Source: Azospirillum baldaniorum (GTDB lineage: Bacteria > Pseudomonadota > Alphaproteobacteria > Azospirillales > Azospirillaceae). From it: a stretch of DNA of 64,000 nt. Shown in pieces: positions 14,626-28,431 of the stretch. The DNA lies in NCBI RefSeq assembly GCF_003119195.2, contig NZ_CP022260.1, positions 775,501-839,500 of the forward strand, written 5' to 3'. A program made the position numbers and the translations under genes. The notes under the pieces are model-generated. The model saw nothing but the letters and a program-made list of their open reading frames with translations. It did not search any database and was not told the DNA's origin. Positions within the stretch are counted from its first letter, which is position 1. The number at the start of each line of letters is the position of its first letter.

Positions 14626-14650
14626 CGTCGTTTCTCCCATCGTGACGCAC

Positions 14651-14704
14651 TTGCCCCACCCCGGCCCTCCCCCGCTGAGCGGGGGAGGGCCGGGGTGGGG
14701 GCAA
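14651..14704. repeat. 54-bp near-perfect inverted repeat
   Basis: Arms at 14657-14676 and 14678-14697 are complementary over 20 bp with a single central base; complementarity continues outwards to TTGCCC/GGGCAA with one extra G. It lies between the racemase-fold gene and the dihydropyrimidinase gene inside the operon, so the mRNA would fold into a very stable hairpin there. It is probably a dispersed palindromic element or an mRNA-processing barrier. Confidence 0.7.
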
Positions 14705-14712
14705 TACTCCCC

Positions 14713-15450
14713 TCAGCCATGCAACTCGCGGAACAGGCTGCCCCAGCCCTCGACGCGGCGGGTGTCCACACCGGTCATGCGCAACGCCTTCCACACCACC
14801 GTGGACACCGTGTCGTAGACGGGGATGCCCAGCGCCTTCTCCATGCGCTCCGCCACTGGGGCGCCGCGCATGTTGGTGCAGATGATGGCGATGGCCTCCG
14901 GCTTCGCCTCCGCGACCTCCATGCACATCCGCTCGATGGTCTCCTCGGTCACCTCGGAGAAGGAGAAGTTGCCGCGGTCGTTCAGATGCCGCTCCGCCAC
15001 CACCTCGAAGCCGGCGGCGTTGTAGTTGGCGACCATCTTCTCCTGGATCTCGTGCAGATAGGGGCTGACGATGGCGAAGCGCTTGCGCCCGGTCGTCTCC
15101 AGAATCTCGTTCAGGGCGAGCATGGAGGTGCAGGCGGGAATGCCCGTCTCCGCTTCGATGGAGGCGCACAGCTTCTCGTCGGCCGCAAAGCCCAGCCAGC
15201 CGGCCGAGGTGCCGTTCCAGCCGATCACGTTCAGCCGGGCGTCGGCCAGCAGCCGGGCGGCGTCCAGGAAGGGCGCGTCGGTGAACTGGTCCAGCGCCGC
15301 CGCGCGCAGGGAAATCTCCTTCACCGTGAAGCGCCCGAAATGGGCGGTCACCTCCGGCAGACCGCTCAGCATCGCGGAGGTGATGGGCTCCAGCACCGTG
15401 TTGGAGGACGGGGTCAGCATGCCCAGAAGGACGCGGTTGCTCATATCCAT
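14713..15450 (-). CDS. Asp/Glu racemase superfamily enzyme, arylmalonate-decarboxylase-like active site
   Basis: 245 residues, two-domain racemase fold of the maleate isomerase/arylmalonate decarboxylase branch (N-terminal GMLTPSSNTVLEP). Racemases and isomerases of this fold use two cysteines. Here the first position reads NGTSAG (Gly80-Thr81) instead of C-T-S, while the second, Cys191 in ICTNMRG, is kept. A Gly plus one Cys is the arrangement described for bacterial arylmalonate decarboxylase. It could therefore be a decarboxylase rather than a racemase. It lies between the amidohydrolase and dihydropyrimidinase genes. The start at 15450 is tentative; an ATG two codons later is possible. 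Confidence 0.75.
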   Translation of the reverse strand: MDMSNRVLLGMLTPSSNTVLEPITSAMLSGLPEVTAHFGRFTVKEISLRAAALDQFTDAPFLDAARLLADARLNVIGWNGTSAGWLGFAADEKLCASIEAETGIPACTSMLALNEILETTGRKRFAIVSPYLHEIQEKMVANYNAAGFEVVAERHLNDRGNFSFSEVTEETIERMCMEVAEAKPEAIAIICTNMRGAPVAERMEKALGIPVYDTVSTVVWKALRMTGVDTRRVEGWGSLFRELHG

Positions 15451-15461
15451 GGTTCTTTCGG

Positions 15462-16793
15462 TCAGGCGCGCGCCCACAGCGCGCGGGCGGCCTTGTCGGC
15501 CTCGGTGCAGATCTCGTTCAGGTCGGCGCGGACGGGGCGCCCGTCCTCGACCAGCGTTTCGCCGTCCACCAGCACCATCTCCACGTCGCGCCCCTGCGCG
15601 GTGTGGACGAGCGTGCCGAGCGGGTTCATCAGCGGGCGGAGATGCGGGCGGCGGGTGTCGAAGACGACGAGGTCGGCCTTCTTGCCCAGGGCCAGAGTGC
15701 CGATCTCGTCGGCCATGCCGACCGCCTGCGCACCGCCCAAGGTCGCCATGCGGAAGACGTCGGCGGGCTGCCAGGCGGCGGTGACCCCACCCTGCTGGAT
15801 GCGCGCGGTGGCGAGCGCCCAGCGCATCGCCTCCACCATGTCGCCGTGCTGCGTGTCGGTGCACAGCGCCAGATTGACGCCCGCCTCCTTCAGCTTCGGC
15901 GTCGGCGCCAGCCGGCCCGATGCGGCGTTGCATTTCGGCACATGGACCGCGTGCGCCCCGGCGCGGGCGAGGCGGGCGATGTCGGCGTTCTCCACATAGA
16001 GGCAGTGGGTGGCGAGCAGCCGGTCGTTCATCAGCCCGCACTCGTCCAGCAGTTCCGCCGGGGTCAGGCCGGTGGACGCCTTCACCCGCTCCACCTCCAC
16101 CCGGCTCTGCGCCAGATGGGTGTTCACGTGCATGGAGCGCTTCGCGGACTCGTCGGCGAGGGTGCGCAGGAAGGCGGGGGAGCAGGTGTCCGGCGCGTGG
16201 GCGGCCATCTGCACGCGGATGCGCCCATTGTTGGCGCCGTTCCAGCGGTCGTGCAGGTCCAGCGTCCGCAGCAGCAGGTCGCTGCCGATGGCTGCGTCGA
16301 AGCGCCATTCGCCCTGGGCCACGCGGGCGAAATCCACGTCGTGGACGCGCCAGCTCGCATGGACGCGCAGCCCGAGGTCGGCGATGGCGTCCAGCGTCGC
16401 GTCGGCGTGGACGAAATGGTCGCAGATCAGCGTGGAGCCGGCGAGCAGCGCCTCCACCGCGCCCAGCCGGGCCAGCGCGCGGGCCTCCTCCGGCGTGGCG
16501 TCGGTGCCCTTGGGCACACCCGGCGTGTAGGAGGGGGCGAAGCCGAGATCGGCGGCGACGCCGCGCACCATGACCAGGACGGCGTGCAGGTGCGCGTTGA
16601 CGAAGCCCGGCGTGACCACCCGCTCCGGCAGATGCCGGACCTCGGCGGCGGCGGGAAGCCCCTGCGATGCCGGGGCGAGATGGACGATGCGCCCGTCGCG
16701 GATGCCGATGGCGGCATCGTCCACGACGCTGCCGACGGCCTCCCCGGTCAGGGCGGTGACGCCGGTCAGCAGCAGGTCGAGCCGGCCGGTCAC
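15462..16793 (-). CDS. Amidohydrolase, TrzA/AtzA or guanine/cytosine deaminase type
   Basis: 443 residues, metal-dependent (beta/alpha)8 hydrolase. Metal ligands: HxH in NAHLHAV, His in NTHLAQS, His in ATHCLYVEN and Asp in CTDTQHGD. The N- and C-terminal beta-sandwich that frames this family is present. Relatives deaminate or dechlorinate N-heterocycles, which fits a role in an early step on a nitrogen ring compound. The start is a GTG overlapping the ATPase stop (GTGA), so it is translationally coupled to the importer. Substrate unknown. Confidence 0.85.
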   Translation of the reverse strand: MTGRLDLLLTGVTALTGEAVGSVVDDAAIGIRDGRIVHLAPASQGLPAAAEVRHLPERVVTPGFVNAHLHAVLVMVRGVAADLGFAPSYTPGVPKGTDATPEEARALARLGAVEALLAGSTLICDHFVHADATLDAIADLGLRVHASWRVHDVDFARVAQGEWRFDAAIGSDLLLRTLDLHDRWNGANNGRIRVQMAAHAPDTCSPAFLRTLADESAKRSMHVNTHLAQSRVEVERVKASTGLTPAELLDECGLMNDRLLATHCLYVENADIARLARAGAHAVHVPKCNAASGRLAPTPKLKEAGVNLALCTDTQHGDMVEAMRWALATARIQQGGVTAAWQPADVFRMATLGGAQAVGMADEIGTLALGKKADLVVFDTRRPHLRPLMNPLGTLVHTAQGRDVEMVLVDGETLVEDGRPVRADLNEICTEADKAARALWARA

Positions 16794-17572
16794 GCGACGG
16801 CGGCCTGCCGTTGCTGCATGCCCTCCTCACGGATCAGGTTGAGGATGTGGCGCTTGTGGTCGTTGAAGCGCGGTCCGGTGGTGTCGCGCGGGCGCGGCAG
16901 GTCGAGCGCGATCAGCTCGCGGATGCGGCCCGGACGGCTGGTCATCACGGCGACGCGGGTGCCGAGCACCAGCGCCTCGTCCACGCTGTGGGTGACGAAG
17001 ACGACGGTGCAGCGCTGCTTCTGCCAGATGGCGACCAGCTCCTCCTGCATGTCCATCTTGGTCTGGGCGTCGAGCGCCGCGAAGGGCTCGTCCATCAGGA
17101 TGACCTGCGGGTTGAGCAGCAGGGCGCGGGCGATGCCGACGCGCTGGCTCATGCCGCCCGACAGCTCCGCCGGGAAGTGGTTCTCAAAGCCGCGCAGGCC
17201 GACCATGTCGATGTATTCCTGGGCGGCGTCGCGCCGGTCGGCCTTGCGCCAGCCCTTCAGCCGCAGGTGGAAGGCGACGTTCTCCCACACCGGCAGCCAG
17301 GGCATCAGGTTGGCCTGCTGGAAGACCATGCCGCGGTCGGCGCCGGGGCCGTCCACCGGCTTGCCGCCCACCGTCACGGTGCCCCCGGTCGGCTTCTCGA
17401 AGCCGGCGATCATGTTCAGCAGCGTGGACTTGCCGCAGCCCGACGAGCCGAGCAGGCAAAGGAACTCGTTCTTCTCCACCGACAGGCTGACGTTGTCGAT
17501 GGCCAGCAGGTCGCGCTTGCGCTTGGCGTCGCGGAAGATCTTGGTGATGTTCTGAAGGTCGATGGAAGCCAT
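16790..17572 (-). CDS. ABC importer ATPase, nitrate/taurine (SsuB/TauB) type
   Basis: 260 residues with Walker A GSSGCGKST, Q-loop GMVFQQANLMPW, signature LSGGMSQR, Walker B VILMDEPFAALD and the H-loop THSVDEAL. It energises import by the permease and binding protein encoded upstream. There are only 3 bp between the permease stop and its ATG, and a 4-bp overlap with the amidohydrolase gene. The context suggests an organic nitrogen ring compound as cargo. Confidence 0.93.
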   Translation of the reverse strand: MASIDLQNITKIFRDAKRKRDLLAIDNVSLSVEKNEFLCLLGSSGCGKSTLLNMIAGFEKPTGGTVTVGGKPVDGPGADRGMVFQQANLMPWLPVWENVAFHLRLKGWRKADRRDAAQEYIDMVGLRGFENHFPAELSGGMSQRVGIARALLLNPQVILMDEPFAALDAQTKMDMQEELVAIWQKQRCTVVFVTHSVDEALVLGTRVAVMTSRPGRIRELIALDLPRPRDTTGPRFNDHKRHILNLIREEGMQQRQAAVA

Positions 17573-17575
17573 CGC

Positions 17576-18382
17576 TCAGCCCTCCCGGCTCTGGAGCGTG
17601 GAGCCGTGCTGCCAGTGCAGCGCGGCGGACATCAGGACTTTGATGAGCGCGTCGGTCGCGTAGCCGAGCAGGCCGATGCTGGCCATGGCGGCGAGCACGA
17701 GGTCGTAGCGCAGGAAGTAGTAGCTGTCCCACAGCACGTAGCCGAGGCCGCTCTTCACCGCGACCATCTCCGCCGTCACCGTCAGCATCCAGGCGGCGCC
17801 GATGCCGATGCGCAGGCCGGCGAAGATGCTGGGCAGGGCCGCCGGGAACACGACGTGGCGCAGCAGCTGCTGCTCCGTGGCGCCCATCATCGAGGCGGCG
17901 CGGATCAGGTTGCGGTCGGCGGTCTTCACCCCGTGGATGGTGTTCATCAGGATCGGGAAGAAGGCGCCGAGGAAGACCAGGAAGATGGCCGGCTTGTTGG
18001 CGATGCCGAACCAGATGATCGCCAGCGGGATCCACGACACCGGCGGCACCGGGCGGAGCATCTGGATGGTCGGCTCCACCGTCCGCTCGACCCAGCGCCA
18101 CCAGCCGATGGCGATGCCCAGCAACACGCCGCTGACCACCGCGATGCCGTAGCCGGCGGCGACGCGTGTGGCGCTGGACAGGGCATCGGCGACCCAGCGG
18201 CCGGTGTTGCCCTGCGAGGTCTCGTCGAAGCCGAAGATCCAGTCGCCCCAGGTGTGCAGAACCACCGACGGGGCCGGCAGCAGGGCCGCCGGCAGGAATC
18301 CGGACCGGGAGAACACCTCCCAGGCGGCGAGGATGAAGAGGGGAACAACGGCGCGCTCCCAGGATTTCGACAATGCCGTCAT
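17576..18382 (-). CDS. ABC importer permease, SsuC/TauC type
   Basis: 268 residues with about six transmembrane segments and the EAA-type loop in IRAASMMGATEQQLLRHVV. It is the inner-membrane channel of the importer, with the ATPase 3 bp downstream and the binding-protein gene 159 bp upstream across a palindromic repeat element. Confidence 0.92.
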   Translation of the reverse strand: MTALSKSWERAVVPLFILAAWEVFSRSGFLPAALLPAPSVVLHTWGDWIFGFDETSQGNTGRWVADALSSATRVAAGYGIAVVSGVLLGIAIGWWRWVERTVEPTIQMLRPVPPVSWIPLAIIWFGIANKPAIFLVFLGAFFPILMNTIHGVKTADRNLIRAASMMGATEQQLLRHVVFPAALPSIFAGLRIGIGAAWMLTVTAEMVAVKSGLGYVLWDSYYFLRYDLVLAAMASIGLLGYATDALIKVLMSAALHWQHGSTLQSREG

Positions 18383-18412
18383 GGCCCGGTTTTCCCTATC
18401 CCGTCATGTTCA

Positions 18413-18535
18413 TAGCCCTCTCCCCTCCGGGGAGAGGGTGGCCCGTAGGGCCGGTGAGGGGGGGGTGCGCATGGCGGAACGTCCGGCATAAGCGCAACCC
18501 CCTCACCCTGACCCTCTCCCCGGAGGGGAGAGGGG
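18413..18535 (-). repeat. 123-bp dispersed palindromic element, copy 1
   Basis: Built from two CCCTCTCC-type palindromes enclosing a GGTGAGGGGG...CCCCCTCACC stem and a central GCGC-containing loop. A near-identical copy lies at 24950-25073 in the opposite genomic orientation. Both copies lie between a binding-protein gene and a permease gene and have the same orientation relative to transcription. In the mRNA each would form a multi-branched stable fold. Confidence 0.85.
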
Positions 18536-18541
18536 AAATTC

Positions 18542-19555
18542 TTAGAAGCCCAGCTCGCTCTTCGGCTTCTTGGTGACGGCTTCGAGGAACGTGTAATCCA
18601 GGTTCTTCTCCGCGGCGGCGGTGACGTCGTTGGAGATGTATTTCAGCTCGCGCATCATCGTGGCGATGGCCAGCGTGCTGTCCTTGTGGATGGCGTAATC
18701 CGGGGAGGCGTTCTTCAGCGCCTCGGTGGCGACGGCCTTGTCCATGCCGGTGTATTTGTTGATGACGTCCACCCACACGGTCTGGTCGGACTTCAGCTTG
18801 TCGACCAGGGCGACGACCGAGCCGACGGTGGCCTCGACCGCCTTCGGATGCTCCTTGATGACGTCGGAGCGGGTGACGATCAGGTTGGTCAGGTTGCCGG
18901 CGGCCTGGTCATAGGGCAGCGCGAAATGCGTGCCGACGCCGGTCTGGCGGATCTGGGAGGCGAAGGGTTCCACCGTGCAGATCACGTCGACCTCGCCGCG
19001 CTGGAGGGCGGCGGCGTGGTCGGACGGGTTCGGGATGTTGATGAACTGCACGTCCTTGTTGACGTTGATGCCGTGCTTCTGGAGGGCGCCACGCATGTGG
19101 ATGTCCTGCGCGTTGCCGCGGGACGCCGCGACGCGCAGCGGCTCGCCCTTCTCCTTGCGCTCGGCGATCAGCTTTTTCAGCCCGTCCCAATCATCGGCCT
19201 TCAGGGTGATGCCCTTGCCGACGACGATCTCCGACCCACCGTTCACCTGACCGGACACGGCCACCACGTCGAAGCCCTTATCGAGCGCTGTGATGTAGTG
19301 TAGGTAGGTCACCTGGGCCATGTCGATGCTCTTCGACACCAGCGCGGTCAGCACGTCGTTGCCGGAATTGAAGTTGATCGCCTCGATCTCCACGCCCTTG
19401 GCAAGTTCCGGGGTCAGCGCCATCGGCAGGCAATGGGCGCATTTGGCGAAGCCCAGCTTCAGCTTCTCCGCGTCGGCCGCCTGAGCGGTGGCAGCGGCGG
19501 AGAGGGCGAGGAAGGCGGCGGTGACGGTCGTCAGGGTGAGGGACCGGAACGTCAT
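18542..19555 (-). CDS. ABC importer periplasmic binding protein (TauA/SsuA/NMT1 type)
   Basis: 337 residues with a Sec signal peptide (MTFRSL start, cleavage probably after TAQA near 25). The mature part has the type II periplasmic-binding fold, with GNAQDIHMRG, QRGEVDVICTVEPFAS and related segments. It delivers the ligand to the permease encoded downstream. A Cys pair (KCAHCLPM) just after the mature N-terminus is unusual and could form a disulfide. It is the first gene of the operon, behind a sigma54 promoter. Confidence 0.92.
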   Translation of the reverse strand: MTFRSLTLTTVTAAFLALSAAATAQAADAEKLKLGFAKCAHCLPMALTPELAKGVEIEAINFNSGNDVLTALVSKSIDMAQVTYLHYITALDKGFDVVAVSGQVNGGSEIVVGKGITLKADDWDGLKKLIAERKEKGEPLRVAASRGNAQDIHMRGALQKHGINVNKDVQFINIPNPSDHAAALQRGEVDVICTVEPFASQIRQTGVGTHFALPYDQAAGNLTNLIVTRSDVIKEHPKAVEATVGSVVALVDKLKSDQTVWVDVINKYTGMDKAVATEALKNASPDYAIHKDSTLAIATMMRELKYISNDVTAAAEKNLDYTFLEAVTKKPKSELGF

Positions 19556-19595
19556 GAAAGGAGTGCTCCCGATGCGGTTGCGTCCCTCATCCTTT

Positions 19596-19611
19596 CGCAA
19601 GGCCCGTGCCA
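19596..19611 (-). promoter_or_regulatory. Sigma54 (RpoN) promoter of the leftward ureide-type operon
   Basis: On the minus strand TGGCACGGGCCTTGCG: a perfect TGGCAC -24 element, 5-bp spacer and TTGC -12 element. It lies about 40 bp before the binding-protein ATG, giving a leader of roughly 30 nt. It implies activation by an enhancer-binding protein such as NtrC, i.e. nitrogen control. Confidence 0.75.
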
Positions 19612-19612
19612 A

Positions 19613-19624
19613 ATTGTATACAAT
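19613..19624. promoter_or_regulatory. GntR-type operator ATTGTATACAAT
   Basis: A perfect 12-bp palindrome with the TTGTATACAA core typical of FCD-subfamily GntR regulators. It abuts the -24 element of the sigma54 promoter (1 bp apart) and lies in the divergent gap to the GntR gene. A repressor bound here would obstruct sigma54 polymerase. Confidence 0.7.
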
Positions 19625-19642
19625 ATTATAATCGTCAATTTA

Positions 19643-19672
19643 TTGGCTGTTTTCAGCCGTTTAGAGCATAGT
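19643..19672 (+). promoter_or_regulatory. Possible sigma70 promoter of the GntR gene
   Basis: TTGGCT (19643-19648), 18-bp spacer and CATAGT (19667-19672). A moderate match, about 100 bp before the gene. Confidence 0.3.
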
Positions 19673-19732
19673 GGAAGAAGCTGGCCGCAAGGAAGCGCGT
19701 TTGCCTGAATTTTGGGCACAGCGCATCATTTC

Positions 19733-19744
19733 GGCATGCATGCC
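19733..19744. promoter_or_regulatory. Palindrome GGCATGCATGCC
   Basis: A perfect 12-bp palindrome about 36 bp before the GntR start and about 120 bp upstream of the sigma54 promoter. It could be a second operator or an activator site. It does not match the NtrC consensus. Confidence 0.3.
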
Positions 19745-19779
19745 CAAGTATGCAGCACTTTCGGGGGTGGTGGGTCAGG

Positions 19780-20514
19780 ATGGACAGGATCAAGACCATG
19801 AAGGCGCCGGCCCGGCCGATCCGCCGCGCGACGCTGCATCATTCCGCGGTGGAGGAACTGCGCGCGATGATCCTGGACGGGGAGTTGCCGCCGGGCATCC
19901 GCGTGCCGGAGGTTCAACTGTGCGAACAGTTGGGGATTTCCCGCACGCCGCTGCGCGAGGCGCTGCGGGTCCTGTCATCGGAAGGGCTGGTGGAGCTTCG
20001 TCCGCACCGCGGAGCCATTGTCGCCCCGGTGGACCCCGGCGAGATCGGCGCGATCTTCGAAGTGATGGACGCGCTGGAGCGGCTGGCCGGGACGCTCGCC
20101 TGCCGCAACGGCTCCGACGCGGAGTTCGCAAAGCTCGACCGGATGCACAACCAGCTGGTCACCCAACACGAAGCGGGGGAGCGCGCGGCCTATTTCCTGA
20201 CCAACCGGCAGATCCACACCCAGATCGTCGCCATGGCCCGCAACCCGGCGCTGGAGGCGACCTACGCCGGCTTCGCCGCAAAGATCCTGCGCGCCCGCTC
20301 CCTCGCCAATTACGACACGGGCCGCTGGCAGGAGTCGGTGGACGAGCATGAAGGCTTCATGAAGGCGTTCCGCCGCCGCGATGCCGAGGAGGCTGGCGCC
20401 CTGCTGGCCGACCACAGCCGCCGCACTGCGGTGGCGGTCATCCAGGCTCTGCGCCCTGCGACGGCTCAAGAGGAAAAGGCGGCGGCCGGGGCCGAGCCGA
20501 TGGACGCGGGATGA
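19780..20514 (+). CDS. GntR-family (FCD subfamily) transcriptional regulator
   Basis: 244 residues from the ATG at 19780; an ATG at 19798, with AGGA 9 nt upstream, is an equally good start. The N-terminal winged helix contains EVQLCEQLGISRTPLREALRVL. The C-terminal FCD domain shows Asp and His metal ligands in VMDALERL, IHTQIV, DEHEGFM and LADHSRR. These proteins usually repress catabolic operons until a carboxylate ligand binds. It is divergent from the ABC/dihydropyrimidinase operon, with a matching TTGTATACAA operator in the shared gap. Confidence 0.9.
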   Translation: MDRIKTMKAPARPIRRATLHHSAVEELRAMILDGELPPGIRVPEVQLCEQLGISRTPLREALRVLSSEGLVELRPHRGAIVAPVDPGEIGAIFEVMDALERLAGTLACRNGSDAEFAKLDRMHNQLVTQHEAGERAAYFLTNRQIHTQIVAMARNPALEATYAGFAAKILRARSLANYDTGRWQESVDEHEGFMKAFRRRDAEEAGALLADHSRRTAVAVIQALRPATAQEEKAAAGAEPMDAG

Positions 20515-20530
20515 TTCGTTCGATTAGGGC

Positions 20531-20559
20531 TTGAATTATGCTGCGGTGCGGAATATATT
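20531..20559 (+). promoter_or_regulatory. Sigma70-type promoter of a predicted small RNA
   Basis: TTGAAT (20531-20536), an exact 17-bp spacer and TATATT (20554-20559), 17 bp after the GntR stop codon. There is no start codon with a ribosome site downstream. The next strong signal is an intrinsic terminator at 20602-20633. Confidence 0.55.
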
Positions 20560-20565
20560 AGTTTC

Positions 20566-20633
20566 ACTGACGCCTTATTGGGCGTTTCCTCCCTAGACTC
20601 GGGCCGCCGGAGCAATCCTGGCGGCCTTTTTCT
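20566..20633 (+). ncRNA. Predicted ~68-nt small RNA with CCUCCC anti-Shine-Dalgarno motif
   Basis: Bounded by a good promoter and an intrinsic terminator. A short ACGCC/GGCGT hairpin is followed by an unpaired TTCCTCCCTAGACTC segment and then the terminator stem. The CCUCCC stretch is complementary to Shine-Dalgarno sequences, as in the CCUCCUCCC-type alphaproteobacterial small RNAs. A related core recurs at 20834-20847. Transcription is inferred. Confidence 0.5.
20602..20633 (+). terminator. Intrinsic terminator with GCAA tetraloop
   Basis: Stem GGCCGCC (20602-20608) and GGCGGCC (20620-20626), continued by GGA/TCC around a GCAA loop, followed by TTTTTCTTT. It ends the predicted small RNA. 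Confidence 0.75.
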
Positions 20634-20714
20634 TTGCGCGGCGCATCCATGGCTTTGCGCATTGCAAAAAGAAAAATCCGCAATGTCCGGTGGAAAGCGA
20701 GGTCCTGAAAGTGA

Positions 20715-20774
20715 AACACGCTGCCGCCGTCAAAGCCCTGCGGGGGTGCAAGGGCTTGAGGCATGCAGCGTGTT
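20715..20774. other. 60-nt interrupted hairpin in gene-free DNA
   Basis: Outer arms AACACGCTGC (20715-20724) and GCAGCGTGTT (20765-20774) are perfect. Inner arms at 20730-20739 and 20751-20759 pair with one bulged A. A further inverted repeat GCGCGCC/GGCGCGC is at 20784-20810. It is probably structured RNA or a mobile palindromic element. No open reading frame with a ribosome site overlaps it. Confidence 0.55.
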
Positions 20775-20822
20775 GCATTGTGTGCGCGCCTTTGTTTTTG
20801 TGCGGCGCGCTCCTGCTTTCAC

Positions 20823-20869
20823 GGACTACCGAGTCCTCCCTAGACTCCGGCCTGACGCTGTTCGCAGCG
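20823..20869 (+). other. Second copy of the TCCTCCCTAGACTC core between two hairpins
   Basis: TCCTCCCTAGACTC recurs at 20834-20847, 247 bp after the first copy and again followed by GGCC. A GGACT-ACCG-AGTCC hairpin lies just before it and CGCTG-TTCG-CAGCG just after. The layout mirrors the predicted small RNA, but no clear promoter or T-run is visible. Confidence 0.35.
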
Positions 20870-21094
20870 CTACGAAAGATAGACCATACGTACCCGCATG
20901 ATGTCAATGGGCACGGTGGCCGGAGGAGTATATTTTTCAGCCTATGACCTTGCGCCGGAGCCCGTAAGTTCCACGCGAATCGGGACATGACCGCCTGCCA
21001 TCGTAGGGCTTGGCCGATCGCAGCGCGTACCATCGCCGCCTTGGTTCACGTCATGCCCGCCGGGCATCGGAACCGACATAGCGGAGGAAACACC
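20870..21094. other. Non-coding leader before the Q/N-rich gene
   Basis: No gene seen. The last 20 bp hold a strong GGAGG ribosome site for the following small gene. I could not identify a confident promoter. Confidence 0.4.
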
Positions 21095-21262
21095 ATGGCC
21101 GACGAACGGAACCCGAACCAGATGGGCAGCCAGAACGAGCGGAAGCAGGGGCAGCAGACCCAGGACAATCCGAAGAACCGGCAGCAGGGGCAGGACCAGG
21201 CGAACCGGCAGCAGCAGGACATGGACCGCGACCAGGACGAGAAGGGCGGGCAGCAGCGCTGA
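21095..21262 (+). CDS. Small Gln/Asn/Asp-rich hydrophilic protein
   Basis: 55 residues, about half of them Gln, Asn, Asp, Lys or Arg, with no hydrophobic core, so it should be intrinsically disordered. The recurring pattern is QQGQDQ/NRQQ. The ribosome site GCGGAGGAAACACC before the ATG is excellent, which supports a real gene despite the length. It precedes the Anbu gene by 151 bp with a terminator between. Function unknown; desiccation or stress protection would be a guess from composition. Confidence 0.7.
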   Translation: MADERNPNQMGSQNERKQGQQTQDNPKNRQQGQDQANRQQQDMDRDQDEKGGQQR

Positions 21263-21343
21263 CCGCGCATCGCGGCGAGGCGGGACATGATGTCCCGTCT
21301 TCCGCGATGGGTTTGCGGCGTGCTGGTTTTTTCGGCATACACT

Positions 21344-21369
21344 GGGGCGGCCGGCCGGCCGCCCCTTTT
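21344..21369 (+). terminator. Intrinsic terminator after the Q/N-rich gene
   Basis: A perfect 22-bp GC palindrome (21344-21365, built of GGCC repeats and closed by GGGG/CCCC) followed by TTTT. It separates the small gene from the Anbu gene. Confidence 0.6.
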
Positions 21370-21413
21370 CGTGTAGGCGGTCCGGCTTCCGCTGGGAGGA
21401 GAGAGGACGGACC

Positions 21414-22148
21414 ATGACCTACTGCGTCGCCCTGTATCTGAAGGACGGCTTGGTGATGCTGTCGGACACGCGCACCAACGCGGGGGTGGACCACATCTCC
21501 ATCTTCAGCAAGATGCACGTCTTCGAAGAGCCCGGCGACCGCATGATCGCCCTGATGACCGCCGGCAACCTGTCGCTCACCCAGTCGGTGATCGCGCTGA
21601 TTCAGGAGGGGGTGGAGCTGGACGGCGAGATCCGGACCATCTCCAGCGTGAACGGCATGTTCCAGGCCGCCCAACTCGTCGGCGCCGCCGTCCGTCAGGT
21701 GTGGAAGCGGGACGGCCACGCGCTGAAGGAGCAGCGGGTGGATTTCGACCTGTCCATCATCCTGGGCGGCCAGATCCGCGGGGACCGGGTGCGGCTGTTC
21801 CATGTCTACGCCGCCGGCAATTTCATCGAGGCGACCGCCGACAACGCCTTCTTCCAGATCGGCGAGCACAAGTACGGCAAACCGATCCTCGACCGGGCGC
21901 TGAATCACAACACGCCGATCGAAGAGGGGATGAAGCTGGTGCTGATTTCCATGGACAGCACGCTGCGCTCCAACCTGACGGTCGGACTTCCGCTCGACCT
22001 GATCGCCTACCGCCGCGATTCCCTGAAGCTGGAGACGAAGCGGCGGATCGGCGAGGACGATCCCTGCTTCAAGGAGATCAGCGACGGCTGGTCCCAGGCG
22101 CTCCGCGAGGCGTTCCGCTCCCTGCCACCACCGCGCTGGGCCGACTGA
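21414..22148 (+). CDS. Anbu: proteasome-like peptidase homologue
   Basis: 244 residues of the Ntn-hydrolase proteasome beta fold. It opens MTYCVAL, so removal of Met exposes Thr as the nucleophile. Asp18 in SDTRTNAG and Lys33 in FSKMHVF take the places of the proteasome Asp17/Lys33 pair. These are the Anbu (ancestral beta subunit) hallmarks; related structures form open rings. In other bacteria the gene clusters with transglutaminase-like, ATP-grasp and alpha-E genes; here it stands alone. The ribosome site GGAGGAGAGAGGA is strong. No regulatory ATPase is encoded nearby. Confidence 0.88.
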   Translation: MTYCVALYLKDGLVMLSDTRTNAGVDHISIFSKMHVFEEPGDRMIALMTAGNLSLTQSVIALIQEGVELDGEIRTISSVNGMFQAAQLVGAAVRQVWKRDGHALKEQRVDFDLSIILGGQIRGDRVRLFHVYAAGNFIEATADNAFFQIGEHKYGKPILDRALNHNTPIEEGMKLVLISMDSTLRSNLTVGLPLDLIAYRRDSLKLETKRRIGEDDPCFKEISDGWSQALREAFRSLPPPRWAD

Positions 22149-22354
22149 GGGAAGCGGGCCCGACATCGGGCGGGCGATGCACGGGCCACTGCCCACCCGT
22201 CGGGCAGCATGGCCAAGGCCAAGGCGCAGCTGAAATTTTAGGCACATTCAGCGGGCAATCTGCCCAGCTTCGCGCCGCGCCCGAACGATGACCATGGGGT
22301 GAACACCAGAGTATGCGAGGGTTCGGGGCCGGAGCGCCCTTGAACCCATGGGAG

Positions 22355-22370
22355 TGGCACGCGGGTTGCT
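22355..22370 (+). promoter_or_regulatory. Sigma54 (RpoN) promoter of the PotABCD-type operon
   Basis: TGGCACGCGGGTTGCT: perfect -24 (TGGCAC) and -12 (TTGCT) elements with 5-bp spacing, 65 bp upstream of the ATPase ATG. The rest of the 286-bp gap (22149-22434) shows no gene and no clear NtrC site. Confidence 0.75.
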
Positions 22371-22434
22371 CTCCCTCTGTCCTGCGACGCGCCACCGGGG
22401 GTTTCCACCGGTGCGCCCTACCAGGACACGCCCC

Positions 22435-23598
22435 ATGGCCGCACTCCAATCCGCCCGTTCGCACCACCACCCGTCTCCGCCGCCCGCCGCGGAGGACCCC
22501 GCCACGCCGGCGGGCGTCGCGGTGACGCTGGACGGCATCACCCACCGCTTCGGCGCCTCCACCGCCGTGGACAACGTGACGCTGGAGATCAAGGCAGGCG
22601 AGTTGGTGGCCCTGCTGGGGCCGTCCGGCTGCGGCAAGACCACGCTGCTGCGCATCCTCGCCGGTTTCCAGGCGCAGACGCTGGGCCGCGTCGTCATCGG
22701 CGACCGGGTGGTCGACAGCCTGCCGCCCGCCGGGCGCGGCGTCGGCATCGTGTTCCAGAACTACGCGCTGTTCCCGCACATGACCGTGGCACAGAATGTC
22801 GCCTACGGGCTGGAGGCGCGGGGTGCCGCCCGCGACGCGGTGCGGGCGCGGGTGGAGGCGATGCTGGGTCTGGTGAAGCTGGACGCCATGCGCGACCGTT
22901 TCCCCAAGCAGCTCTCGGGCGGACAGCAGCAGCGCGTGGCGCTGGCCCGCGCCCTGGCGATTCAGCCGAGCATCCTGCTGCTCGACGAGCCCTTCGCGGC
23001 GCTCGACAAGAATCTGCGGCTGGACATGCAGATCGAGATCAAGCAGCTCCAGCGCCGTTTCGGCATCACCACCATCATGGTCACCCACGACCAGGAGGAG
23101 GCGCTGAGCATGGCCGACCGCATCGCCGTGCTGAGCCGGGGCAAGCTGGAGCAGTTCGGCACGCCGGAAGACGTCTACGACCGTCCCGGGACCCTGTTCG
23201 TCAACGGCTTCGTCGGCAGCGCCAACCAGTTGCGGGGCCGCGTCGTCCGCGCCTCCGGCAGCGTCGCCGAGGTGGCGCTGGAGGCGGGCACCGTGCTCTC
23301 CGCCGTCACGCCCGACGCCGCGCTGGCCGCCGGCGACCCCGCGATCCTCTGCGTGCGCCCGGAAAACCTGCGGCTCGCCACCGAGGCGGCGCCCCAGCAG
23401 ATCGCCGGCACCGTGGACCTCGCCCTGCCGCTCGGCCCGGTGGTCGTCTACGAGGTGCGCACCGCCGACGGCGGGAAGGTGAAGGTGACCGAGCCGCGCG
23501 TGGCCGGCGCCGCGCTGCGCGCGCCCGGCACGCCGGTCCGGCTGCAGCCCGTCTCCCCCCAGACCTGCCGCGCCTTCGCCGTTCCCGCGGGCGCCTGA
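22435..23598 (+). CDS. ABC importer ATPase, PotA/FbpC (spermidine/iron) type
   Basis: 387 residues: Walker A GPSGCGKTT, Q-loop VFQNYALFPHMT, signature LSGGQQQR, Walker B ILLLDEPFAALD, H-loop MVTHDQEEAL, and a C-terminal TOBE-like domain (about 280-385). The first 35 residues are Pro/His-rich and outside the fold. The ATG at 22435 has AGGA about 10 nt upstream. It is the first gene of a four-gene importer operon with a sigma54 promoter, so cargo uptake is probably nitrogen-controlled. Confidence 0.93.
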   Translation: MAALQSARSHHHPSPPPAAEDPATPAGVAVTLDGITHRFGASTAVDNVTLEIKAGELVALLGPSGCGKTTLLRILAGFQAQTLGRVVIGDRVVDSLPPAGRGVGIVFQNYALFPHMTVAQNVAYGLEARGAARDAVRARVEAMLGLVKLDAMRDRFPKQLSGGQQQRVALARALAIQPSILLLDEPFAALDKNLRLDMQIEIKQLQRRFGITTIMVTHDQEEALSMADRIAVLSRGKLEQFGTPEDVYDRPGTLFVNGFVGSANQLRGRVVRASGSVAEVALEAGTVLSAVTPDAALAAGDPAILCVRPENLRLATEAAPQQIAGTVDLALPLGPVVVYEVRTADGGKVKVTEPRVAGAALRAPGTPVRLQPVSPQTCRAFAVPAGA

Positions 23599-23644
23599 TC
23601 CACTCCCTCCCCCTTCTCTCCTCCTCCCCCTGGAGTGCCTGCCG

Positions 23645-24691
23645 ATGACCCTCGACCGCCGCCAGATCCTCGCCGCCGGCCTCACGCTCGGCGCCATGTC
23701 CCTGTTCCCCGGCATGAGCTGGGCGCAGGCGCGCAAGCTGGTGTTCGCCACCTTCACCGGAAGCTGGGAGGAAGCCCACCGCGACGTCATCGTCCCGCAT
23801 TTCCGCAAGGCCACGGGCAACGCCGACATCGCGCTGGACCCGATGCTGTCGGTGGACATGATCGCCAAGGTGTCCGCCGCCAAGGCAAACCCGCCGATCG
23901 ACGTGATGCTGATGGACCCCGGCCCGCGCCTGTCGGTGATCGGCCAGGATCTGGCCGCCCCCTTCCCCGTCGCGGACAGCAAGAACTACCAGGACCTGCT
24001 GCCGGTGGCGCAATTGCCCGAAGGGCCGGGCATCTTCTTCCAGGCGGTCGGCATCACCTACAATCCGGAGAAGGTCAAGACCCCGCCGACGAGCTGGGAC
24101 GACCTGTGGAAGCCGGAGTACAAGGGCCGCGTCGGCATCACCAACATGAACTCGACGCTCGGCACCGCCTTCATGGTCGAGCTGGCGAAGACCCGCGGCG
24201 GCAGCGAGAACGACATCGAGCCAGCCTTCGCCGCGCTCAAGGAGCTTCAGCCGAATCTTGGCGCCGTGGCGCCCAACCCCGGTGCGCTCGCCACCCTGTT
24301 CCAGCAGGGCCAGATCGACATCTCGCCGGGCAACTTCAACGCCATCCAGATCCTGCGCGCCCGCGGCGTGCCGGTCGAGTTCGCCAAGCCGAAGACCGGC
24401 ACCATCGCCTTCCTGACCACCGCCCACATCACCAAGAACTCGCCCAACGCCAAGCTGGCCGCGGCACTGATCGAATCGGCCATGGCGCCGGAGGTCCAGA
24501 CCAAGCTTATGCAGGCGCCCTTCTACGTCATCCCGACGAATTCCAAGGTGCAGATGGACGGCGACATCGCCCGCATGATCGCCAAGGACCAGGAGGAGCT
24601 GAAGGCGTCCTTCGTGTTCCACGACTGGTCGGTGATCAACCAGAACCGCGCCGGCTGGATCGAGCGGTTCAACAAGGAGATCAAGGTGTAA
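23645..24691 (+). CDS. ABC importer binding protein, PotD/Fbp (type II) family
   Basis: 348 residues with an N-terminal DRRQIL twin-arginine-like signal and hydrophobic stretch, cleavage probably after SWAQA (about 28). The mature protein has the PotD-like fold with GITYNPEKV, TSWDDLW and GRVGITNMNS motifs, typical of binding proteins for polyamines or small organic acids and amines. GGAG lies upstream of the ATG. It is followed by a 415-bp gap filled with two palindromic elements and then the two permease genes. Confidence 0.9.
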   Translation: MTLDRRQILAAGLTLGAMSLFPGMSWAQARKLVFATFTGSWEEAHRDVIVPHFRKATGNADIALDPMLSVDMIAKVSAAKANPPIDVMLMDPGPRLSVIGQDLAAPFPVADSKNYQDLLPVAQLPEGPGIFFQAVGITYNPEKVKTPPTSWDDLWKPEYKGRVGITNMNSTLGTAFMVELAKTRGGSENDIEPAFAALKELQPNLGAVAPNPGALATLFQQGQIDISPGNFNAIQILRARGVPVEFAKPKTGTIAFLTTAHITKNSPNAKLAAALIESAMAPEVQTKLMQAPFYVIPTNSKVQMDGDIARMIAKDQEELKASFVFHDWSVINQNRAGWIERFNKEIKV

Positions 24692-24722
24692 GTGCGGGAA
24701 ACGGGCCCCCTCCCGACCTCTC

Positions 24723-24924
24723 CATAGGCGCTAACTTCGGCCACCTCATTCATTGTCCGGCTTATCTTCACCTTAATTCATCGTCATTCCCGCGAAGGCG
24801 GGAATCCAGTCCGTTCAGACACTTATCTGCAGAGCTTTCTGGACCCCCGCCTTCGCGGGGGTGACGATGAAAAAGATGGAAGCCAGTCGAAATGAAGCCA
24901 TTCCACCCGAAGTTAGCGCCTATG
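24723..24924. mobile_element. MITE-like element with 18-bp terminal inverted repeats
   Basis: Perfect terminal repeats CATAGGCGCTAACTTCGG (24723-24740) and its complement (24907-24924) bound a 202-bp non-coding unit. Inside is a second palindrome whose halves read ATTCCCGCGAAGGCGGGAAT and CCCCGCCTTCGCGGGG, a repeat type common in proteobacterial genomes. There is no transposase; an 8-bp target duplication is not evident. It may be a nested pair of elements. Confidence 0.7.
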
Positions 24925-24949
24925 CCCGGCCTCCCCCCGCTGACCATCT

Positions 24950-25073
24950 TAGCCCTCTCCCCTCCGGGGAGAGGGTGGCCCGCAGGGCCGGTGAGGGGGT
25001 TGCGCTTGTGCCGAACGCTCCGCCACGCGCATCCCCCTCACCCTAACCCTCTCCCCGGAGGGGAGAGGGGACT
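24950..25073 (+). repeat. 124-bp dispersed palindromic element, copy 2
   Basis: Matches the element at 18413-18535 almost base for base when that copy is read on its minus strand, including the central loop with GTTGCGCTT and the GGTGAGGGGG/CCCCCTCACC stem. It is bounded by CTTAG and CTAAG. It lies just before the permease gene, after the binding-protein gene, as does copy 1. Confidence 0.85.
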
Positions 25074-25106
25074 AAGACTGCAGTTGCCCCCACAGGACCC
25101 CACCCC

Positions 25107-26006
25107 ATGACCGCAGCCACCGCCATCACCGCCCCCGGCCTTGCCGGACCCGCGACCGCCGCACGGCCCCGCATCGGGCGGGAATGGACGCTGGCGCTGC
25201 CGCTGGCCGCCTTCTTCGCGGTGTTCTTCGTGACGCCGCTGCTCCTGCTGGTCGCCGTCAGCCTCTACGCCGACGCGGAGATGACGCGGTTCGGGCTGGA
25301 CCAGTACATCCGCTTCTTCGGCGACACCTTCAATCTGGCCGTGCTCGGCAGCACGCTGCTGCTGGGGGTGAAGGTTACGGCGCTGACACTGCTGTTCGGC
25401 TATCCGCTGGCCTGGCTCTATACCCGCAGCGGGCCGCGGATGCAGTCGGCGCTGATCCTCGTCATCATCCTGCCGCTGCTGACCTCCGTCGTGGTGCGCA
25501 CCTTCGCCTGGATCGTCATCCTGGGGCGCGACGGAATCGTCAACAACCTGCTGCTGTCGCTGGGTCTGGCGGAAACGCCGCTGCGCCTGCTCTACACCGA
25601 AGGCGGCCTGGTCGCCGCCCTGGTGCAGGTGCAGATGCCGCTGATGGTGCTGCCGCTGATCACCACCCTGTCGCGGCTCGACCCCAACCTGCTCGACGCC
25701 TCGGCGGCGCTGGGCGCCGGGCCGTGGCGGGGCTTCCTCAAGGTGACGCTGCCGCTGAGCCTGCCGGGGATCGTCGCGGGGTGCCTGCTGACCTACGCCG
25801 CCGCGGTCACCGCCTTCATCACCCAGTCGCTGGTCGGCGGCGGGCAGATGCTGTTCATGCCGCAATACATCTATCAACAGACGATCACGCTCCACAACTG
25901 GCCCTTCGCCGCCGCCATCTCCATCGTCTTCATGATGTCGGTGCTGGGTGTGGTGATGCTGTTCAACCTGCTGGGCCGCGCCAGCAAGGGGTACGTCCAT
26001 GCCTGA
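25107..26006 (+). CDS. ABC importer permease, PotB type
   Basis: 299 residues with about six transmembrane helices and the EAA loop LLDASAALGAGPWRGFLKVTLP. It forms the heterodimeric channel with the next gene product. Its stop overlaps the start of that gene by 8 bp. Confidence 0.92.
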   Translation: MTAATAITAPGLAGPATAARPRIGREWTLALPLAAFFAVFFVTPLLLLVAVSLYADAEMTRFGLDQYIRFFGDTFNLAVLGSTLLLGVKVTALTLLFGYPLAWLYTRSGPRMQSALILVIILPLLTSVVVRTFAWIVILGRDGIVNNLLLSLGLAETPLRLLYTEGGLVAALVQVQMPLMVLPLITTLSRLDPNLLDASAALGAGPWRGFLKVTLPLSLPGIVAGCLLTYAAAVTAFITQSLVGGGQMLFMPQYIYQQTITLHNWPFAAAISIVFMMSVLGVVMLFNLLGRASKGYVHA

Positions 26007-26814
26007 CATGCAGCGCCCGACCCTGGGAAGCGCCTCCTTCGGCCTCGTCATGGGCACGCTCGCCGGCGCGGCGCTGCTGCTGCTGGCGGCGCCGACGCTG
26101 GTGGTGCTCGTCACCTCCTTCACCGACGGCTATTCGCTGAAGTTCCCGCCGCCGTCCTACAGCCTGCGCTGGTACGCCTCGCTGATCGACGCGTGGCAGC
26201 TCCAGGACGCCGCGCTGGTCAGCCTGAAGCTGGGCGCCGTGGTGACCGCCGTGTCGGTGGTGCTGGGCACCGCCGCCGCGCTGGCCATCGGGCGCAGCCG
26301 CCGCGCCTGGGCGCGCGGGCTGGACGCCCTGTTCATGTCGCCGCTGGTCCTGCCGGCGCTGGCCTTCGGCCTTGCCTCGCTGGTGTTCTTCAGCACGGCG
26401 GGGGTGGAGCTGTCCTTCCTGACGCTGGCGATCGGCCACATCGTGGTCAGCGTGCCCTACGTCCTGCGCACCACGCTGGCGAGCCTCGCCCAGCTCGACC
26501 CGGCGCTCCTGGAAAGCTCCGAGAGCCTGGGGGCCGGGCGCCTCTACACCTTCCGCCGGGTGACGCTGCCGACCATCCGCAACGGCATCGGCGCCGGGGC
26601 CTTCATCGCCTTCATGTCGAGCTTCGACAACATCCCGGTGTCGCTGTTCATGGCGGACGCCCGCAACGAGGTGCTGCCCATCCGCATGTGGCAGATCCTG
26701 GAGAACAGCCTGGACGTCCGCGCCGCGGCGGTGTCCGGCGTGCTGATCGCCGTCACCGTCCTGGCGATGGTGGTGATGGAACGCGTCGCCGGCCTGTCGC
26801 GCCAGCTTCGCTAG
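25999..26814 (+). CDS. ABC importer permease, PotC type
   Basis: 271 residues, six transmembrane helices, EAA loop LLESSESLGAGRLYTFRRVTLP. It overlaps the preceding permease gene by 8 bp, a sign of translational coupling. Its stop codon is one base from the stop codon of the convergent uraH gene, so no terminator can lie between them. Confidence 0.92.
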   Translation: MPDMQRPTLGSASFGLVMGTLAGAALLLLAAPTLVVLVTSFTDGYSLKFPPPSYSLRWYASLIDAWQLQDAALVSLKLGAVVTAVSVVLGTAAALAIGRSRRAWARGLDALFMSPLVLPALAFGLASLVFFSTAGVELSFLTLAIGHIVVSVPYVLRTTLASLAQLDPALLESSESLGAGRLYTFRRVTLPTIRNGIGAGAFIAFMSSFDNIPVSLFMADARNEVLPIRMWQILENSLDVRAAAVSGVLIAVTVLAMVVMERVAGLSRQLR

Positions 26815-26815
26815 C

Positions 26816-27172
26816 TCACGCCCCGCGGAACAGGGAATAGCCCCAGGGGGTGAATTTCAGCGGCAGATGGTAGTGCTGCTCCACGTCGGTGACGGTGAAG
26901 CGAAACGGCGCCTCCTCCAGGAAGGCCGGTTCCGCCGCTCCCGCTCCTTGCGCGCGCAGCCAGGGGCCGATGTGGAACACCGCCTCGTAGACGCCGGCCG
27001 TCACGCCGTCGCCGCCGACCACCGGATGGTCAAGCGCACCATTGGCACACAAACGGCTTTCCGCTAGCCTGTTCCGCTGTCCGTCCCGCAAAGCATAGAG
27101 TTCCACCCGCATCCCCTCGGCGGGCACCCCACGCGCCACATCCACCGCATGCAACGAAATCCCGCCGGCCAT
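26816..27172 (-). CDS. uraH: 5-hydroxyisourate hydrolase (transthyretin-like)
   Basis: 118 residues. His8 in ISLHAVDVARG and the C-terminal HYHLPLKFTPWGYS are the HIU-hydrolase signatures. The usual terminal tetrapeptide YRGS is replaced here by FRGA, preceded by YSL. The enzyme hydrolyses 5-hydroxyisourate to OHCU in purine breakdown. No urate oxidase, OHCU decarboxylase or allantoinase gene is nearby. It is convergent with the permease gene (1-bp gap) and divergent from the MFS gene. Confidence 0.88.
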   Translation of the reverse strand: MAGGISLHAVDVARGVPAEGMRVELYALRDGQRNRLAESRLCANGALDHPVVGGDGVTAGVYEAVFHIGPWLRAQGAGAAEPAFLEEAPFRFTVTDVEQHYHLPLKFTPWGYSLFRGA

Positions 27173-27201
27173 CGGCCCGTCCCTTTCCCTGTGGAGTCCC
27201 C

Positions 27202-28431
27202 ATGAACGTCTGGTTGCTGCCTCTGATCGCCATGGCGGCGGTTCAGGCGTTCGTCGGGCTGTGTCTCTTCGCCATCCCGGTGATCGCGCCGCAGGCGGCG
27301 CCCGACCTGGGGGTCGATCCGGGGCTTCTCGGCCTTTATACCGCGGTCGTCTTCACCGCCGCCATCCCCGCGTCGCTGGGGGCGGGCGGGCTGATCGCGC
27401 GCTGGGGAGCGATCCGCACCTGCCAGGCCTGCCTGCTCGCCGCCGCCGGAGCCGCGCTGCTGTCGGCCAGCGCCCTTCCCATCGCCTTCCTGCTGGGGGC
27501 GCTGGCGCTGGGCTTCGCCTTCGGGCCGGAGACGCCGGCCAGCACGCAGCTGCTGTCCCGTCTGACCCCGCCGGAGAAACGCCCGCTGGTCTTCTCGCTG
27601 CGCCAGACCGGCAACCAGTTCGGCGGCATGGCCGCCGGCTTCGCCGTGCCGCTGCTGGTCCTGTCCGTCGGCTGGCAGGCCAGCCTGATGGTCGTGGCGG
27701 GCGCCACCGCCGTCCTGGCGCTCGCCCTGGAACCGCTGGCCCGCCGCCACGACGGCGACGACCGCGCCGCTCCCCGCCCCGCCGGCCGCGGCACGCTGAA
27801 GCGCGCGCTCGATCTGGTCGCCGGGGAACCGGCGCTGCGCCGGCTGGCCATGGCGGTCTGCGCCTTCTCGGCCATGCAGCTCTGCCTGAACGGTTTCCTG
27901 GTCAGCTTCGCGGTGACCAGCCTGGGCTGGAGCCTGCCGCTGGCGGGCACGGCGCTGGCGGTGGCGCAGGGCGCCGGGCTGGTCGGGCGCGTCGGCTGGG
28001 GCCTCGTGGCGACCCGCTGGGCACCGCCCCGCGTCATCCTCGCCGGGCTGGGCGTCGCCATGAGCGTGGCCGCCGCCCTCGTCGCCATCGCCTCCCCCGG
28101 CTGGCCGGTGCCCGCCTTCCTGGCCGTCTGCGCCGCCTTCGGCCTGTCGGCGAGCGGCTGGAACGGCCTGTTCGTTTCGGAGGTCGCCCGTCTCGCCCCG
28201 CCGGGCCGGGCGGGCGAGGCGACGGGCGGCATGCTCGCCATCGCCTACGCCGGGCTGGTCGCCGGGCCCGCGCTGTTCAGCCTTCTGGTCGCCGGGGGCT
28301 TCGGCTATTCCGCCGGCTATCTGGCCGCCGCCGCCGCCGCGCTGGCCGGCGTCGCGGCGCTGGTCATTCCCCTGCCGCCAGCCCCCACCCCGGACCTTTC
28401 CACCGCTGCCGAGGACACCCCATGCGCATGA
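27202..28431 (+). CDS. MFS transporter
   Basis: 409 residues with about 12 transmembrane segments and the loop-2/3-type GGLIARWGAIRT motif. GGAG precedes the ATG. The stop overlaps the amidase start by 10 bp, so carrier and amidase are co-translated and probably act on the same compound. CynX/NimT-like carriers look similar. The substrate is not known, although nitrogen-containing small molecules fit the context. Confidence 0.85.
   Translation: MNVWLLPLIAMAAVQAFVGLCLFAIPVIAPQAAPDLGVDPGLLGLYTAVVFTAAIPASLGAGGLIARWGAIRTCQACLLAAAGAALLSASALPIAFLLGALALGFAFGPETPASTQLLSRLTPPEKRPLVFSLRQTGNQFGGMAAGFAVPLLVLSVGWQASLMVVAGATAVLALALEPLARRHDGDDRAAPRPAGRGTLKRALDLVAGEPALRRLAMAVCAFSAMQLCLNGFLVSFAVTSLGWSLPLAGTALAVAQGAGLVGRVGWGLVATRWAPPRVILAGLGVAMSVAAALVAIASPGWPVPAFLAVCAAFGLSASGWNGLFVSEVARLAPPGRAGEATGGMLAIAYAGLVAGPALFSLLVAGGFGYSAGYLAAAAAALAGVAALVIPLPPAPTPDLSTAAEDTPCA

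Follow-up and report, generated by a model that had tools for sequence, protein, structure and literature searches.

The hairpin that lies between malE and malF of Escherichia coli is a REP element. In two predicted ATP-binding cassette (ABC) transporter operons of Azospirillum baldaniorum (assembly GCF_003119195.2), situated in a 64,000-nt stretch of contig NZ_CP022260.1 (positions 775,501 to 839,500; the whole stretch is called the window below), a palindromic repeat of about 123 bp likewise separates the gene of the substrate-binding protein (SBP) from a permease gene. Counted over the genome, this repeat is strongly enriched at junctions where a binding-protein gene is followed by the next gene of the transporter, and shows no preference for orientation. 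Among the closest described systems are the malE-malF hairpin and the TM_ECO (PIT-type) triplex motifs. In the part of their paper considered here, Dar and Sorek (2018; PMC5927463) present the hairpin between malE and malF as an obstacle to 3'-5' exonucleases; in the five E. coli ABC operons that they report, it is always the SBP gene that is stabilised. According to the portion of Holder et al. (2015; PMC4666352) used throughout this text, E. coli K-12 has 23 TM_ECO motifs at 18 sites, with five inverted pairs.

Both copies of the repeat in the window are real, near-perfect palindromes, and gene calls together with alignment confirmed the sequence-only reading that the same element stands between the binding-protein and permease genes of both ABC operons. 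The copies, their parts and the operon genes are located as follows.

18413..18536, + strand: copy 1 of the palindromic repeat (core orientation +, antisense to operon 1)
18440..18452, + strand: asymmetric mini-hairpin GGCCC-GTA-GGGCC in the left half of copy 1, an orientation marker read from the sequence
18500..18534, - strand: right half of copy 1, TM_ECO triplex-motif pattern (PMC4666352) with 0 mismatches
24950..25073, + strand: copy 2 of the palindromic repeat (core orientation +, sense to operon 2)
24977..24989, + strand: asymmetric mini-hairpin GGCCC-GCA-GGGCC in the left half of copy 2, read from the sequence
25035..25069, - strand: right half of copy 2, TM_ECO triplex-motif pattern with 0 mismatches
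24779..24869, no strand assigned: unrelated palindrome with arms ATTCCCGCGAAGGCGGGAAT ... CCCCGCCTTCGCGGGGG, inside the copy-2 spacer
16790..17572, - strand: operon 1 ATPase gene, ABC_tran (domain match)
17576..18382, - strand: operon 1 permease gene, BPD_transp_1 (domain match)
18542..19555, - strand: operon 1 binding-protein gene, NMT1_2 (Pfam, gene calling, syntenic annotation)
22435..23598, + strand: operon 2 ATPase gene, ABC_tran + TOBE_2 (domain match)
23645..24691, + strand: operon 2 binding-protein gene, SBP_bac_6/8 (domain match, syntenic annotation)
25107..26006, + strand: operon 2 first permease gene, BPD_transp_1 (domain match)
25999..26814, + strand: operon 2 second permease gene, BPD_transp_1 (domain match)

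Copy 1 sits between the SBP and permease genes of operon 1 (junction 1), and copy 2 between the SBP gene and the first permease gene of operon 2 (junction 2), in a spacer of 415 nt that also holds the different palindrome at 24779-24869. Palindromes of this ATTCCCGCGAAGGCGGGAAT type are absent from the other junction-2 spacers inspected in relatives, and searching the fetched stretches with a strict pattern brought up no other arm of the kind. All four copy strands fold at -103.8 to -110.3 kcal/mol; on the operon-sense strand, the predicted long hairpins of the two copies have -103.8 and -105.7 kcal/mol. An intrinsic terminator was rejected at the window copies, as a consensus scan, the sole search made for it, gave no terminator-like site at either of them. 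Rfam covariance models, applied at the gathering score to positions 16000-28000, matched no family at the palindromes, the sole match being suhB/mmgR.

The sequence-only reading had further held that the copies are inverted on the chromosome and consequently point the same way relative to transcription, but this did not survive closer inspection. Direct alignment (112 of 128 columns shared) beats inverted alignment (105 of 137), which makes the copies direct repeats, and the asymmetric part of the left half, GGCCC-N-AGGGCC, is on the + strand in both. As the copies are direct on the chromosome and the operons are opposed, the copies face opposite ways relative to transcription, copy 1 being antisense and copy 2 sense. 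The repeat listing also gives them as direct over most of their length; the 61-nt inverted match that appears there too is what one would expect of a palindrome.

In the genome (7.68 Mb, 7 contigs), a search for the asymmetric 30-nt core that allowed at most 3 mismatches returned 67 copies (38 on the + and 29 on the - strand), and the single hairpin CCCTCTCCCC-N3-GGGGAGAGGG was found 297 times with up to 2 mismatches; both reversed-pattern controls gave 0. Sixty-six of the 67 core copies were classified (C3:111170, L249, is the unclassified one): the flanking genes are co-directional for 45, convergent for 14 and divergent for 5, and the other 2 copies fall within called open reading frames. 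The right arm was recognised in 62 of these 66. For comparison, twenty 20-kb stretches (400 kb) were taken at round coordinates, regardless of the element; their intervals of at least 30 bp, referred to as random, comprise 133 co-directional, 37 convergent and 64 divergent ones. Divergent regions are depleted of copies (5/64 versus 64/234 random intervals, p=7e-4). The genome-wide count that had been proposed as a check on random placement thus gave a divided answer: the positions are non-random and the orientations are random, since among the 45 tandem copies 27 have the same direction as transcription and 18 the opposite one (p=0.23), with 9 and 5, respectively, in the SBP subset. With the window copies being direct repeats and this ratio genome-wide, a sense-orientation signal was rejected.

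The excess at SBP>permease junctions was measured on 126 PF00528 permease-domain matches in the genome, which led to 78 operons and 43 such junctions, the SBP being called from the N-terminus, the length and the absence of ATPase motifs. A Pfam scan of the 43 junction genes hit 12 families, and 11 of these are families of binding proteins; this was counted by family, so not every gene is vouched for. Eight of the 43 junctions carry the hairpin family. The proportion is lower both for the remaining junctions of these operons and their surroundings (6 of 242, p=2e-4) and for random tandem junctions (1 of 210, p=3e-6). With spacers of at least 30 nt only, the proportions are 8/27 versus 6/96 for same-operon junctions (p=0.0025) and 1/133 for random tandem junctions (p=2e-6).

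Viewed from the side of the repeat, the upstream gene encodes an SBP for 14 of the 45 tandem copies, and at random tandem junctions for 1 of 133 (at least 30 nt) or 4 of 210 (all lengths); the SBP genes of the background were found by phmmer with SBP seeds, which may undercount, and those beside the element by Pfam. The 14 SBP-following copies, which start 7-258 nt past the SBP stop, span nine kinds of SBP family, and two of them precede TRAP membrane genes. The next gene encodes a permease, a TRAP membrane protein or an ATPase in 11 of the 14; of the other three, one (L107) is followed by another SBP gene and two (L132 and L100) by genes left unscanned. The next start lies no more than 15 nt past the end of the copy in only 3 of the 14 cases, and sequestration of the Shine-Dalgarno sequence by the right arm was rejected. 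One repeat pair of this genome stands between a PBP_like_2 (PstS-type) gene and a permease gene. In A. brasilense Sp7, where 42 of 46 copies were examined (4 fell outside the fetched stretches), an SBP gene lies upstream of 6 of 26 tandem copies; five are at sites common to the A. baldaniorum genome and one is not, so Sp7 is only partly independent. Copy 1 of the window has its counterpart in Sp7 at junction 1.

As to the type of repeat, the TM_ECO pattern CCCTCNCCCN3-6GGGNGAGGGN3GGGNGAGGG is exact in the right halves of both window copies; it has 59 hits in 60 element stretches and 0 in the 400 kb of random stretches. The left half has no match on that strand, its second loop being about 15 nt long, with a mini-hairpin, instead of 3 nt. 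By their sequence, then, both copies are members of a dispersed palindromic family built of two inverted hairpins, of which one matches the TM_ECO (PIT-type) triplex motif exactly and the other is a TM_ECO-like variant. Beyond the right-half pattern, it shares with the motifs of Holder et al. (PMC4666352) the occurrence as inverted pairs (5 of the 18 E. coli sites), the intergenic location and the lack of strand bias. It differs in the left half, where the second loop is enlarged by the GGCCC-N-GGGCC mini-hairpin, and in its SBP>permease excess, the authors of that paper having found no operon bias in E. coli. A TM_ECO motif is present in the pst operon of E. coli K-12, between pstA and pstB (3908495-3908530).

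REPINs, as presented in the part of Bertels and Rainey (2011; PMC3116915) considered here, resemble the repeat in being inverted palindrome doublets with a long hairpin, extragenic dispersal and solo forms; however, REPIN doublets are reported as random in extragenic space, whereas the A. baldaniorum repeat is not. A RAYT-driven REPIN was rejected, as Y1_Tnp (PF01797) had 0 matches at E<=0.001 in the genome (5 of 14 control genomes were positive), other transposases not having been searched. Bacterial MITEs, by the definition given in Holder et al. (PMC4666352), are also shorter than 200 bp, palindromic and dispersed, but the copies described here have neither uniform flanks nor a target-site duplication obvious by eye. 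The latter was rejected. The mean flank palindromicity of the 66 copies (5.39) is hardly above that of shuffled partners (5.24); a minority has palindromic flanks (score of at least 8 in 10 of 66 copies versus 5.7% of shuffles). No account of the arrangement in Azospirillum was found in a limited search of the open literature (titles and abstract beginnings, with subscription literature outside its scope). Both the type of repeat and the malE-malF mechanism have been described before; what may be new is the variant together with its positional excess.

Compared with malE-malF (PMC5927463), the window copies likewise place a stable hairpin between the SBP stop and the permease start of one, here predicted, operon, and by the consensus scan this hairpin is not an intrinsic terminator. 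Unlike it, the Azospirillum palindrome has a different sequence and recurs at many transporters of one genome. The parallel with malE-malF drawn in the sequence-only reading agrees with the anatomy (position, hairpin strength and no terminator-like site) and with the transcriptome study of Dar and Sorek (2018; PMC5927463), whereas the argument from sense orientation fails. Since a near-palindrome gives an almost equal hairpin either way, the analogy has no need of orientation; the palindromic shape, and not the direction, would be what counts. A transcribed, very stable hairpin just past the SBP stop, with no U tract in the window copies, would halt 3'-to-5' exonucleases, and the SBP mRNA would then be protected while the permease part decays faster, as with the malE-malF REP. 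Insertions at SBP>permease junctions would be tolerated or favoured, since the binding protein is needed in excess. Stabilisation of SBP mRNA by the window copies is plausible, and we assign a probability of about 0.5 to the reading that the hairpin protects this mRNA as at malE-malF. A broader proposal seems doubtful to us, namely that evolution in the A. brasilense group has recruited dispersed triplex-type palindromes at ABC and TRAP transporters, as a general means of setting SBP above membrane components, lost or replaced hairpins being re-supplied by other palindrome families, so that a hairpin is kept while its sequence turns over.

Other palindromes do occur in such spacers. A second repeat family (B, with arms CCCTCCCCCGC...GCGGGGGAGGG) was recognised by eye in six further SBP>permease spacers. 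Strong structure (z<-5) is present in 14 of 25 SBP>permease spacers of at least 40 nt, compared with 10/85 same-operon, 6/117 random tandem, 9/33 convergent and 1/55 divergent spacers; those longer than 450 nt were excluded (1/86, 7/124, 2/35 and 9/64 of these four classes, respectively). Families A or B were detected by regular expression in 13/25 SBP>permease, 3/85 same-operon, 4/117 random tandem, 6/33 convergent and 0/55 divergent spacers, although these labels miss some copies and L243, family B by eye, is counted as repeat-free. A third family with the same architecture (CCCTCTCCCGGGACGGGAGAGGG-type arms and a GGCCC or GGCCG mini-hairpin) was seen in spacers L382, L384, L390, L412 and L417, and it occupies orthologous sites where other genomes hold family A. 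In several copies, a double-hairpin insert of about 60 nt (GCTCACGCGC...GCGCTGACGCGRCAGGC...GCCGAAAGC) is located in the apical loop of the palindrome hairpin, forming a palindrome within a palindrome, at these loci:

L131:11829, L148:2970 (-), L249:2914, L259:1337 (-), L302:1264, L391:1338 (-), L408:1313 (-): nested insert

The insert possibly has a conserved junction motif; in L302 its stem letters differ from those at the other loci, and among known RNA families it gave only sub-threshold microRNA matches, to L302.

The core is present in 21 of 45 genus genomes (that of A. baldaniorum included), and the element matches 69 plasmid records, 45 of them from Azospirillum. At junction 1, the 25 resolved of 26 genus loci vary: some have the complete pair, with or without a nested insert, and others a lone hairpin, a family-B element or little structure. 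Junction 2 shows a similar mixture over 30 loci, a count that retains one row (L281) for which the caller took a permease-permease junction of 1 nt. An apparent left end of a family-B element stands beside the family-A hairpin at junction 2 in the A. baldaniorum genome and Sp7, and this apparent remnant suggests that family A replaced family B there. Turnover was also compared at a third SBP site and at two non-SBP sites.

Several of our observations weigh against protection of the SBP mRNA as the reason for the excess, and other explanations have to be considered beside it; these are not exclusive, and some can hold together. The SBP calls at the 43 junctions were judged after the element-bearing ones were known, hence not blind. 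In E. coli, Holder et al. (2015; PMC4666352) found no operon bias for TM_ECO, and a location between SBP and permease genes was rejected: of the 18 sites, 14 were examined, each with a confirmed motif, and none of these lies at such a junction; set against 14/66 in the A. baldaniorum genome, this is not significantly different (p=0.11). Junction 1 is short (26-52 nt) and has no strong hairpin in 9 of the 25 resolved relatives. Between the A. baldaniorum genome and Sp7, copies at SBP sites are not retained significantly more often than the others (5/6 versus 16/36, p=0.18), and special retention of SBP copies was rejected accordingly. Repeat-free SBP>permease spacers show no extra structure compared with other tandem spacers (p=0.13 and 0.3). 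Their structure is weaker than that of convergent spacers and surpasses that of the divergent class alone (p=0.019); the excess of structure at SBP spacers therefore stems from the repeats, and repeat-independent hairpins at these junctions were rejected. Finally, at the two control junctions, NadA>NadB and QueF>QueG, turnover among families A, B, the third family C (CCCTCTCCCGG...CCGGGAGAGGG) and solo hairpins is the same as at SBP sites, so that turnover belongs to the repeats and not to the binding-protein genes, and was rejected as an SBP-specific signature. A neutral or selfish dispersal, in which the repeat inserts or is exchanged at hairpin-holding sites and is tolerated where lower permease expression is harmless, any effect on mRNA being incidental, explains nearly all the data. 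It agrees with the exchange of families A, B, C and solo hairpins at SBP and non-SBP junctions alike, the nested inserts in the hairpin loop of several copies, the depletion at divergent, promoter-bearing regions, the unremarkable structure of repeat-free SBP spacers and the random orientation. However, the SBP>permease excess holds against same-operon junctions, including spacers of at least 30 nt (8/27 versus 6/96, p=0.0025), and we consider this explanation possible, though short of an even chance.

If most transcripts stopped at the element, permease mRNA would be cut at synthesis and not by decay. Strong GC-rich hairpins past the SBP stop codon, the 14 of 66 copies between convergent genes, at the ends of transcription units, and the SBP>permease copy L180, directly followed by seven T, speak for such an attenuator or terminator; the consensus scan with no terminator-like site at either window copy speaks against it, as does an earlier study, cited in Holder et al. 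(2015; PMC4666352), in which the E. coli motif had neither promoter nor terminator activity, and this possibility seems to us unlikely. Still less probable is an action at the DNA level (intrastrand triplex, recombination or replication stalling), with the placement near transporter genes as a by-product of genome instability. The exact TM_ECO match and the content that varies at the same site in relatives would fit it, as would the in vitro stability of the triplex and the greater variability of TM_ECO loci among strains, both reported by Holder et al. (2015; PMC4666352). The same authors, however, detected neither a triplex signal when the DNA was double-stranded nor a block in footprints made in vivo, and an action of this kind predicts no SBP>permease excess. 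With 67 copies in 7.68 Mb, i.e. approximately one per 115 kb, two in one window are not rare by themselves, and they might merely happen to lie at similar junctions; the genome-wide counts reject chance placement (p=2e-4 to 3e-6) and make such a coincidence hardly credible.

Over 10.3 kb around both copies, A. brasilense plasmids match 95-96% of the length with 96% identity (three best records), and the gene order is the same in the syntenic A. brasilense plasmid records read; in two syntenic plasmid stretches, the gene caller recovered nearly all annotated genes, a few starts differing. Genes for a dihydropyrimidinase, a racemase and an amidohydrolase adjoin operon 1 (13189-17572), and a hydroxyisourate hydrolase gene adjoins operon 2 (26816-27172), all named from syntenic annotation. 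These neighbouring enzymes suggest that the operons serve nucleobase or hydantoin uptake and degradation. The suhB/mmgR small RNA match (56.9 bits, gathering score 41) is located at 20565-20641 on the + strand, between a GntR-type regulator gene and a proteasome-type protease gene. A run of degenerate 44-nt matches of the GATTACGGCCGCTCC type, spaced by multiples of 15 nt, at 38749-39089 perhaps encodes a low-complexity protein.

If the excess of the repeat at SBP>permease junctions reflects function, mobile palindromes would supply mRNA-stability signals that tune the subunit ratios of many transporters at once. This functional question is testable, since closely related strains differ at a given junction in whether the hairpin is present, missing or exchanged for another. 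On the other hand, if the excess reflects tolerance, junctions between binding-protein and permease genes would mark safe settling places for selfish palindromes. On either reading, the published finding that the motif has no operon bias in E. coli does not extend to Azospirillum.

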